Origin: Halobacterium sp. DL1
Lineage (GTDB): Archaea > Halobacteriota > Halobacteria > Halobacteriales > Halobacteriaceae
Length of the DNA stretch: 64,000 nt
NCBI GenBank assembly: GCA_000230955.3
Contig: CP007060.1
Coordinates: 682,001 to 746,000 of the forward strand
Reading direction: 5' to 3'
Part shown: positions 56,954 to 60,012 of the stretch, one piece after another
How the letters are laid out: every line of letters begins with the position of its first letter
Position numbering within the stretch: the stretch's first letter is position 1
Program-made: the position numbers and the translations under genes
Notes under the pieces: model-generated
The model's database searches: none
Told to the model about the DNA's origin: nothing
Seen by the model: only the letters and a program-made list of their open reading frames with translations

Positions 56954-57903
56954 CCCTGGACGGTCGGCACTTCGACGCTGTCGAGGACGTCGGCGACGAC
57001 GTCCTGCTTCGCGACGTTCTCGACGGCGGCGTCGGGCGTGAGCACGATGCGGTGGGCGAGCACGTTCGGCGCCAGTCGCTTCACGTCCTCCGGAACGACG
57101 TACTCCCGGCCCTTCACGACGGCCCGCGCCCGCGCGGCCTCGAACATGCGCTGGGTGCCCCGCGGACTCACGCCGACCTCGACGCGGCGGTCCTCGCGGG
57201 TCGCCCGCGCGATGGATACCATGTACTGGAGGAGGCCGCCTTCGACCCGGACCTCCTCGGGGGCCTGCTTCATCGTCTCGATGCGCTCGGCGTCTAGTAC
57301 GGCTTCGACCGTGGGACTGCGCGTGTCGCGGCCCGCGCGCCGTCGCAGCAGGTCGAGTTCGCCGGCCTCGTCGGGGTAGCCGATGCCCGCCTTCGCCACG
57401 AAGCGGTCCATCTGTGCCTCCGGGAGCGGGAACGTCCCCTCCTGCTCGACCGGGTTCTGCGTCGCGATGACGAAGAACGGCTTCGGGAGCTCCATCGTCT
57501 CCCCGTCGATGGTCGCCTGCCCCTCCTCCATGGCCTCGAGGAGCGCGGCCTGGGTCTTCGGCGGGGCGCGGTTGATCTCGTCGGCGAGCACCACGTTCGC
57601 GAAGATCGGGCCCGGCTGGAACTCGAACTCCCGGCTCTTCTCGTTGAAGACGTGCGTCCCGAGCACGTCCGAGGGGAGGAGGTCCGGGGTGAACTGTACC
57701 CGCTGGAAGGAGAGCCCCAGGGCCGTGGCGACGCTCCGGGCGGTGAGCGTCTTCCCGGTGCCCGGGACGTCTTCGAGGAGGACGTGGCCGTCGGCCAGGA
57801 AGCCGACGAGGACCGTTTCGAGGAACTCGCGGTCGGTGATGACTGCCCGCTCGACCTCGTTCAGGACGGCGTCGCACTCGTCACGCGCGCTGGTGACGTC
57901 CAT
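56950..57903 (-). CDS. MoxR-family AAA+ ATPase
   Basis: 317 residues from ATG at 57901-57903; an upstream GTG (about 57948) would add 15 residues. Walker A DVPGTGKTL at 45-53, Walker B VVLADEINRAPPKTQ, sensor 1 PFFVIATQNPVEQEGTFPLPEAQMDRF, sensor 2 arginine in SPRGTQRM. Works as a hexameric chaperone for the vWA/DUF58 proteins, and is therefore the functional partner of the four convergent genes although transcribed separately. The promoter may be near 57975 (TTTAGTGG on the minus strand). Confidence 0.93.
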   Translation of the reverse strand: MDVTSARDECDAVLNEVERAVITDREFLETVLVGFLADGHVLLEDVPGTGKTLTARSVATALGLSFQRVQFTPDLLPSDVLGTHVFNEKSREFEFQPGPIFANVVLADEINRAPPKTQAALLEAMEEGQATIDGETMELPKPFFVIATQNPVEQEGTFPLPEAQMDRFVAKAGIGYPDEAGELDLLRRRAGRDTRSPTVEAVLDAERIETMKQAPEEVRVEGGLLQYMVSIARATREDRRVEVGVSPRGTQRMFEAARARAVVKGREYVVPEDVKRLAPNVLAHRIVLTPDAAVENVAKQDVVADVLDSVEVPTVQG

Positions 57904-58005
57904 GGTCGATTCGAACGACCCGCTCCGTTTAGCGCTATCGGTTGACACGATGGCTGTTTGTGGAACCGAAACCACTAAATCCGAACACGGCGACGTATCG
58001 AACGA

Positions 58006-58090
58006 GCCGAGGTAGCCTAGCCTGGCCAAGGCGGTTGCCTCGAAAGCAACTGTCCACACGGACTCAGGAGTTCAAATCTCCTCCTCGGCG
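58006..58090 (+). tRNA. tRNA-Ser(CGA)
   Basis: 85 nt, class II. Acceptor stem GCCGAGG/CCTCGGC, discriminator G, D-arm TAGCCTAGCCTGGCCAAGGC, anticodon stem GTTGC/GCAAC with loop CTCGAAA (anticodon CGA), long variable arm TGTCCACACGGACTC, T-arm AGGAG-TTCAAAT-CTCCT. No intron. Followed by two more copies of the last ~22 nt, at 58217-58238 and 58363-58389. An upstream TATA-like ACTAAATCC at about 57973-57981 is at the right distance. Confidence 0.95.
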
Positions 58091-58389
58091 TTTCACTACT
58101 GACGACACCGCGAAGCGACTGCTCTGTCGCTTCGCGTGTCTGCGGTGTATCGACGAGCGAGATTTGAATGAGGGCAGTCGCAGCCGGCGAGCGCAGCGAG
58201 CCGGTCGCCTGCACGTAGTTCAAATCTCCTCCTCGGCGCTTTTCGGGAACCAAACCGACCAGCGACGCCTGTGTCGCTGGTCGTGTGGGCACGTAAACGC
58301 CGTGAGGAGTTTGAACCCTGCAAGACGCAGCGCGAACGCCAGTGAGCGACCGTCTTGCTCCGGTTCAAATCTCCATCTCCTCCTCGGCG
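58091..58389. repeat. Tandem tRNA-Ser tail array with conserved hairpins
   Basis: Two consecutive units of ~148-151 nt after the tRNA gene, each ending with the tRNA-Ser 3' tail. Copy 2 is AGTTCAAATCTCCTCCTCGGCG (58217-58238), identical to the tRNA over its 22 nt in two halves; copy 3 (58363-58389) has a 6-nt expansion in the tail. In each unit a strong hairpin follows the tail by ~20 nt: an 11-bp stem with 6-nt loop at 58109-58136 and a 10-bp stem with 6-nt loop at 58257-58282, both containing GCGAC/GTCGC. No protein gene lies in this 395-bp gap to 58485. Confidence 0.75.
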
Positions 58390-58485
58390 CTTCTCCAACA
58401 CTATCTCACCACAGAGCAACTGCTGTGTCGCCCTGCCCGGGTTGGCGGAACCGCTGGGAGGCGTTCGAAACCTTCTCAGTCGCCG

Positions 58486-60012
58486 TCAGTCCGCGACGGC
58501 TTCCGTGGCCTTCTCCGGGAGCAGTCTGTCCAGCGCGTCCACGACGGCGGTGACGCTGGCGTTTGTGATGTCGCTGTCGCTGGCGTCCACGGACACCGAG
58601 CGGTCGCCGCGCGTGACCGTAACGTGGACGGTGACGACGGCGTCGGTGCCACCCGTGATGGCGTCGACGTGGTAGTCCTCGAGGTGGAAGGTGACGTCGC
58701 CGAGCGCCTCACGGACGGCGGCCATCGCGGCGTCGACGGGGCCGCTGCCGGTGCCGGCGGCGGTCTGCTCCTCGCCGTCGACGCGGAGGCGGACAGACGC
58801 CGTGGGTGTGCCCCCGCCGCTCGCCGCCGTGAGGTCACAGACCTCCACGCGGCGCTCCCGGTCGCCGGAGCGACCGGTGACGTCGTCGGCGATGGCGAGC
58901 AGGTCGGCGTCCGTGACGCGCTTCCCGCGCTCGCCGAGTTCGTTCACGCGCTCCACGACGGTGACGAGGTCGTCGTCGCCGACCTCGACGTCGTGTTCGG
59001 CGAGCGCGGCTCTCACGCCCGCGCGCCCGGCGTGCTTCCCGAGGACGAGGCGGCGCTCGCGGCCGACCGCTTCCGGCGGGTACGGCTCGTACATGCGGTC
59101 GTCCTTCAGCGTGCCGTCGGTGTGGATGCCGGACTCGTGGGCGAAGGCGTTCTCGCCGGAGACCGCTTTGTTCGGCGGGAGCGGGACGCCCGTCGCCTCG
59201 CTGACGGTCGCGGCGAGGTCGTAGAGCTGTTCGGTGTCCACGGTGTCGACGTCGTAGCAGTGGTCGAACGCGATGGCGACCTCTTCGAGCGCCACGTTGC
59301 CGGCGCGCTCCCCGATGCCGTTGACGGTGGCGTGGACGAGGTCGGCGCCGGCGCCGACGCCCGCGAGCGCGTTCGTCATCGCGAGCCCGAGGTCGTCGTG
59401 GGTGTGCACGCTCACCGGTCCGTGCCTGGCGGCGCGCGCGACGCCCTCCCGGACCGCCTCGGGGCTGGCGTGGCCGACGGTGTCTGCGAAGCAGAACCGG
59501 TCGGCGCCGGCCTCGCTGGCGGCCTCGGCGAGCCGTTCGAGGAAGCCGAAGTCGGCGCGCGAGCCGTCCTCGCCGATGACCTCGACCCAGAGCCCGTGAT
59601 CGGTCGCGTACTCCACGAGCTCCCGGGTCGTGGTCAGCACGGCCTCGCGCGTCGTGCCGACCTTCCCCTCGATGTGGCGGTCGCTGGCGGGGACGACGAC
59701 GTTGACGCCGTCGACGCCGCAGTCGAGTGCGAGTTCGACGTCCCGCTGGACGCCACGGCAGAAGCTCGTGACCGTCGCGTCCAGGCCGAGTTCGGTGACC
59801 CGCTGGATTGTCCCGCGTTCGCCAGCGCTCGTGCACGCGCTGCCGGCTTCGACGACGGCGACGCCAGCCGCGTCGAGTTTGCGGGCGACTGTGGCTTTCT
59901 GATCGCCGGTCAACGACACGCCGGGGGCTTGCTCGCCGTCCCGGAGCGTGGTGTCGAGAAGTGATACGTCGGCGTCGGCTGATTCAGTAGTGCCGGAGAA
60001 TTTCGCGTCCAG
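58486..60012 (-). CDS. 2-isopropylmalate synthase / (R)-citramalate synthase family (LeuA/CimA-like), start uncertain
   Basis: About 508 residues if translation begins near 60012. Family motifs: LLDTTLRDGEQAPGVS near the start, VVEAGSACTSAGE, HTHDDLGLAMTNALAG (metal-binding His-x-His), GIGERAGNVALEEV, and a C-terminal LeuA regulatory domain (VEVCDLTAASGGGTPTASVRLRVDGEEQTA; YHVDAITGGTDAVVTVHVTV). It condenses acetyl-CoA with a 2-oxoacid in leucine or isoleucine synthesis; which one cannot be decided here. The open frame extends upstream to a stop at 60070-60072 but has no ATG, GTG or TTG before the TTLRDGEQ motif; the first standard start (GTG at 59919) would cut this motif off. CTG at 60010-60012 is used here as a working start. 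Confidence 0.85.
   Translation of the reverse strand: MDAKFSGTTESADADVSLLDTTLRDGEQAPGVSLTGDQKATVARKLDAAGVAVVEAGSACTSAGERGTIQRVTELGLDATVTSFCRGVQRDVELALDCGVDGVNVVVPASDRHIEGKVGTTREAVLTTTRELVEYATDHGLWVEVIGEDGSRADFGFLERLAEAASEAGADRFCFADTVGHASPEAVREGVARAARHGPVSVHTHDDLGLAMTNALAGVGAGADLVHATVNGIGERAGNVALEEVAIAFDHCYDVDTVDTEQLYDLAATVSEATGVPLPPNKAVSGENAFAHESGIHTDGTLKDDRMYEPYPPEAVGRERRLVLGKHAGRAGVRAALAEHDVEVGDDDLVTVVERVNELGERGKRVTDADLLAIADDVTGRSGDRERRVEVCDLTAASGGGTPTASVRLRVDGEEQTAAGTGSGPVDAAMAAVREALGDVTFHLEDYHVDAITGGTDAVVTVHVTVTRGDRSVSVDASDSDITNASVTAVVDALDRLLPEKATEAVAD

Follow-up and report, generated by a model that had tools for sequence, protein, structure and literature searches.

How does a tRNA gene come to be followed, in tandem, by copies of its own 3' end, with a hairpin at the same distance behind each? 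The question is raised by a locus in the window, the 64,000-nucleotide stretch analysed here (G000:C1:682001-746000), which lies within a 3.16 Mb haloarchaeal genome. A tRNA-Ser(CGA) gene, called by ARAGORN and by Rfam RF00005 (E 7.7e-11), is followed by two units of 148-151 bp and then by one remnant (Table 1). A preliminary description, made from the sequence alone, had reported three copies of the tRNA tail at a spacing of about 148-151 nt, with GCGAC/GTCGC hairpins and 6-nt loops in between. The tail copies are present at 58069-58093, 58217-58241 (96%) and 58368-58392 (76%), at spacings of 148 and 151 nt, and the third is interrupted by a 6-nt insertion. The hairpin, called h1 below, holds for units 1 and 2, where it has a perfect 11-bp stem and a 6-nt loop; its third copy is degenerate. 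Overlooked in that description was a second, larger hairpin, h2, present in each full unit, with arms at 58159-58168/58219-58228 in unit 1 and 58310-58317/58362-58369 in unit 2. The right arm of h2 continues into the copied tRNA tail, the left arm in unit 1, GAGATTTGAA, repeats the T-loop and T-stem of the tRNA in reverse complement, and h2 is the most strongly conserved part of the unit.

Table 1. Features of the array behind tRNA-Ser(CGA), in window coordinates
Feature	Position	Strand	Description
tRNA-Ser(CGA), array host	58006..58090	+	3' tail T54-73 = 58071-58090
Unit 1, 148 bp	58091..58238	+	T-rich start, h1, spacer, h2, tail copy 20/20
h1 of unit 1	58109..58136	+	CGCGAAGCGAC-N6-GTCGCTTCGCG
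h2 of unit 1 plus tail copy	58152..58238	+	R1 match; left arm GAGATTTGAA 58159-58168, tip GCGAGCGCAGCGAGC
Second tail	58219..58238	+	Exact 20-nt copy of tRNA positions 54-73
Unit 2, 151 bp	58239..58389	+	h1, h2, diverged tail with 6-nt insertion
h1 of unit 2	58256..58283	+	CGACCAGCGAC-N6-GTCGCTGGTCG
h2 of unit 2	58299..58383	+	R1 match
Third tail, 6-nt insertion	58364..58389	+	
Degenerate h1-like remnant past last tail	58407..58431	+	

The four hairpin stretches of the window array have fold z-scores of -2.5 to -4.5; that of the last, degenerate stretch is not significant (-0.08). A covariance model of h2, R1, was built from ten sequences of this one genome, and on three of five measures none of 500 shuffles equalled the value observed for the training set. 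In a whole-genome search R1 scores units 1 and 2, which are among its ten training sequences, at E 7e-16 and 3e-15, values that are rough, as all R1 E-values are. These scores, together with the repetition of the same architecture at many other tRNA genes, place the array beyond chance. Rfam, run over 57000-60000, reports the tRNA alone above threshold and no known structured-RNA family for the units. ARAGORN also calls a tRNA-Val(GAC) at 59676-59756, within a long opposite-strand ORF (58486-59919); it is absent from the RF00005 matches and is probably spurious.

The units are not confined to tRNA-Ser. A search of the genome with the h1 core gave matches directly behind other tRNA genes, and at 19 of the 43 tRNA genes defined by RF00005 the gene's own tail recurs 33-183 nt downstream, in most cases at 80-142 nt, with 15 or more of 20 bases matching. 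Two further tRNAs (L015, L026) are followed by h2 with a degraded tail. Short units contain little besides h2; long ones contain both h1 and h2. R1 finds 23 matches in this genome and, at E up to 0.01, matches in 190 of 194 Halobacteria species genomes and 62 of 65 genera, counts that come from a single model trained on one genome and from related, hence non-independent, genomes. A sample of the whole phylum, searched at E up to 1e-4, gave matches in 41 of 43 Halobacteria genomes and in none of the 204 genomes outside the class. Genera matched by a stricter pattern include Haloarcula, Halorientalis, Halomicroarcula, Halobellus, Natronomonas, Halobium, Halohasta and Halobiforma. The preliminary description had proposed such a covariance search and had named uniqueness of the array to this genome as telling against its reading; the family is class-wide.

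The units form a Halobacteria-wide family of gene-less mini-insertions at tRNA 3' ends, mostly of about 70-180 bp before the tail copy. Those examined, mostly 70-180 bp long, have no room for a gene or an integrase. No autonomous or excised form was seen, and no integrase-bearing or gene-bearing version was found. A candidate gene-bearing cassette in G127, a 1.9 kb gap between two matches, proved to be a pair of tRNA-Gly genes that both have unit(s) of their own. Viral contigs yielded no unit with a strict pattern; a loose pattern gave 97 stretches, and among the 80 loci listed three reach E 0.1 under R1, the best-scoring of those listed being a sequence with neither tRNA nor tail and no true unit.

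The linkage to tRNA genes is close. In four genomes, 86 of 99 R1 matches have a tRNA on their own strand no more than 1 kb upstream, and 8-22 tRNAs per genome (20-54% of tRNA genes) have a unit within 250 nt. The junctions are equally regular. Across 87 units with 45 distinct tails, tail copies are 95-100% identical to their own tRNA from base 53 to 69 and 92-95% identical at the last four bases, to base 73; upstream of base 52 identity drops to 0.08-0.66, and the unit has its own sequence there, most often CTCCGG. The copy is perfect (20/20) in 67 of 94 cases. At five loci compared between this genome and its congener G011 (L013/L171, L012/L170, L049/L208, L042/L200 and window unit 1), one genome has a whole unit that the other lacks, and at such loci the downstream sequence of the unit-less genome abuts the tRNA tail exactly. 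In the case of L042/L200 the unit is on the G011 side. These differences bear out the idea of discrete units at tRNA tails that the preliminary description had put forward.

The tRNA-Ser locus varies in the same manner, with zero, one or two units among congeners. Window unit 1 is missing from G011 at the orthologous tRNA-Ser, with an exact tail junction; unit 2 has an orthologue in G011 and related units in G093 and G066. In G198 and G197 the locus has h1 only, and T-rich stretches stand behind many tails. In G196 an ORF lies behind the tRNA-Ser tail where congeners hold units (L130); judged by eye, its product is putatively TnpB-like. The tRNA-Ser(CGA) genes of G034, G197 and G196 (L119, L116, L130) have the T-stem GAGC/GCTC instead of AGGAG/CTCCT, a compensated change within the genus. 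Elsewhere arrays reach five units, with alternating unit types and also with identical tandem units. When the first and last tail copies were compared in 14 arrays (the window array and 13 others), the first was the better in 8, equal in 6 and worse in none (p = 0.008). The more diverged copies sit distal to the tRNA, a pattern suggesting that new units join the array on its tRNA side.

What is conserved within the units is h2. Its two arms repeat the T-loop in opposite orientations (ATTYGAA ... TTCRAAT) on either side of an asymmetric, compensated stem, and its tip usually reads GA-(GC or AC)-GNA-(GC or GT)-GA. In an alignment of 103 distinct rows fitted to the model, which therefore leans towards it and includes a few antisense matches, 24 of 27 pairs show double changes, and the covariation score is 0.326, where shuffles give 0.132 and sliding gives no more than 0.078; covariation is strong also on rows aligned with MAFFT. 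Model-free counts of stem B give 380 Watson-Crick pairs out of 415, with AT, CG, GC and TA all used, among units kept for having at least three of five pairs, a filter that favours pairing. The compensatory conservation claimed in the preliminary description is thus borne out by h2. The base of the left arm that faces tail base 57 also covaries with it (41 T-A and 23 C-G combinations, with 7 crossed and another 3 that have C57). In its acceptor part the left arm does not track the tail (2.7 versus 2.6 of 8), and mimicry of an acceptor minihelix was rejected on this ground. In the inner stems (B and C) G-T and A-C occur 13 and 9 times, compared with 28 and 0 in the tRNA stems of two of these genomes (p = 2e-4). 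The lack of an RNA-type G-U excess argues for h2 folding as DNA rather than RNA, although the sense strand gives the better fold with both parameter sets and especially with RNA parameters.

The explanation that we favour, tentatively and at somewhat below even confidence, is that the units are recombination cassettes, non-autonomous and without genes, which a putative recombinase would stack at tRNA ends. A cassette would consist of h1 and h2, or in some cases h2 only, followed by a copy of the host tRNA tail from T54 to base 73. A dedicated recombinase acting in trans would recognise h2 as DNA that is folded or extruded into a cruciform. The unit would enter by exchange at the T-loop of the tRNA and end up with the host tail on either side. 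Units would be gained or lost whole at the tail, the direction of movement being such that fresh ones arrive beside the tRNA. This reading is favoured by the nature of the conserved part, a compensated hairpin that presents the T-loop as an inverted pair, and by the same-orientation arrays that seemingly grow at the tRNA. By analogy it also draws on the T-arm-like inverted repeats GTTCAAATGCC / GGCATTTGAAC that flank the cores of two tRNA-Phe elements, so that repeats of this kind do occur at integrase sites here. The binding of archaeal XerA to stem-looped att structures (PMC8371274) is a lead for the cassette reading and not a test of it. Against the cassette reading stand the 45 different tails, an uneasy fit for one tyrosine recombinase whose attP is fixed, the left arm whose acceptor part does not track the tail, and the searches that turned up no autonomous or excised form and no true unit on viral contigs. 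The tail copy itself could conceivably stem from target duplication, as in casposons, which have a Cas1 integrase, terminal inverted repeats and a short target duplication at tRNA.

Integrons offer a loose comparison. In both systems tandem, same-orientation arrays stand at a fixed anchor and appear to grow beside it, and the hairpin that closes each unit, as with attC, is compensated and has a variable tip and an asymmetric internal loop. The Halobacteria units differ from integrons in that they have no genes and, in those examined, no room for an integrase in cis, and are anchored at a tRNA tail. The outer arms of the attC R box have the consensus RYYYAAC ... GTTRRRY. Compared by eye, the Halobacteria arms are T-loop sequences (ATTYGAAC ... 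GTTCRAAT) and not attC boxes; at the fourth base, which is R in the attC consensus, they have C. Archaea are reported to have integron cassette arrays, attC sites and CALINs (PMC9668308); Halobacteria are not mentioned in that paper, as judged by a text search. A more specific proposal, that Halobacteria hold a dedicated, gene-less, integron-like cassette system anchored at tRNAs, in which a putative conserved recombinase inserts folded DNA hairpins by exchange at the T-loop of many tRNAs, is possible but doubtful.

Plain recombination as the means of spread is a strong rival. Ordinary homologous recombination or microhomology-mediated template switching could copy units between tRNA genes and between strains by way of the near-universal T-loop GGTTCRAATC and the tails, with loss between tails and with arms matched by quasi-palindrome correction. 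The identity boundary falls exactly at the T-loop common to most tRNAs, as expected if no dedicated enzyme is involved, and identical tandem units, alternating module types and the h1-only loci of G198 and G197, which resemble deletions between hairpin copies, point the same way. The whole-unit differences between congeners can likewise be produced by loss through homologous recombination between the 20-nt tails, the comparison being unpolarised. Spread without a dedicated enzyme, however, leaves unexplained by itself the class-wide internal motif AGTCGCAGC...GACCGTCT and the strict compensation of the inner stems, and as a full account we consider it rather unlikely.

Alternatively, h1 and h2 may serve in RNA, as trailer, terminator or processing structures of read-through tRNA transcripts, with each tail and T-rich stretch forming an extra termination or RNase Z site. 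The units are nearly always on the tRNA-sense strand, h2 covaries, and T-rich stretches follow many tails. The sense strand outfolds the antisense under both RNA and DNA parameters, the gap being clearer with RNA parameters, and a better sense-strand fold would also be expected from an RNA function. Hairpins are able to terminate transcription in Haloferax volcanii (PMC7237163). A palindrome stands shortly behind about half of the tRNA genes of Methanopyrus kandleri (PMC5217627); in the part of that paper drawn on here it is a single short motif, said to be species-specific, and neither tail copies nor arrays are described. On the other hand, roughly half of the tRNAs, or more, are without a unit in each of the four genomes for which they were counted, orthologous tRNAs of close relatives do without one, the inner stems show no G-U excess over A-C, and the window copy matches no Rfam family. 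An RNA role is improbable in our estimate.

The remaining readings concern integrative elements. Of the 13 R1 matches away from tRNAs, eight have a PF00589 integrase domain no more than 0.7 kb away, where 0.15 would be expected. All seven integrase-adjacent loci examined have the same order, integrase, the element's tail, h1, h2 and tail, and in each a unit formerly behind the tRNA has been moved 2.8-77.5 kb through the insertion of an element into the tail of the tRNA itself. This order, with the element's tail first and the displaced unit second, rules out h2 as the attP of the neighbouring integrase, and in none of the seven was the hairpin part of the element's own attP. A 77.5 kb element is integrated in tRNA-Phe of this genome (L084 and L165, G000:C1:381543-459202); it has a PF00589 tyrosine integrase and a second long ORF nearby, and att flanks with 11-nt inverted T-arm-like repeats; a 79% identical relative of the L084 integrase lies in tRNA-Phe of G042. 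At the G042 tRNA-Tyr locus the sequence after the unit's tail (L164) closely repeats the element arm behind the tRNA itself (L163), and two related elements seem, from this repeat, to share one tRNA with the unit between them.

That elements do enter these tRNA loci, and that element-arm-like sequence follows the unit's tail at the G042 locus, would suit a role of the units as decoy attachment sites, extra downstream tails diverting integrases from the tRNA. All seven examined elements, however, entered the tRNA's own tail and none the copy, and the conservation of the h2 core is left unexplained; we regard a decoy role as very unlikely. The reading of the preliminary description, in which integrase-driven satellites, every one with an att plus a structured RNA or origin, left the units behind as remnants, could appeal to the enrichment near PF00589 domains, but it is largely refuted and hardly credible, because the units beside integrases are displaced tail-h1-h2-tail blocks and not the elements' own ends, because most relatives of the nearest integrase have no adjoining unit (only 3 of 20 relatives of L084, itself included, have a match below E 0.001), and because no version with a gene or integrase was found.

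We found no earlier description of hairpin plus tRNA-tail units in the open-access literature. Archaeal integrative elements that target tRNAs likewise use the tRNA 3' end and have the tail at both ends of the insert, but they contain an integrase and kilobases of cargo (PMC8371274); the Halobacteria units are gene-less and form one family across 45 different tails. The MITEs, PATEs and small mobile repeats of Haloquadratum are also short, non-coding mobile sequences with palindromes (PMC3119063); in the portion of that paper used here, no tie to tRNA tails and no copying of tRNA ends is described for them. The units thus appear to be a widespread and previously undescribed kind of mini-insertion at tRNA genes. 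They bear on the evolution of tRNA loci and on the integration sites of mobile elements. They also bear on how the boundaries of genomic islands are called, as integrated elements push the units to their far end. Cassettes or not, they raise the question of what places one hairpin beside dozens of different tRNA tails.
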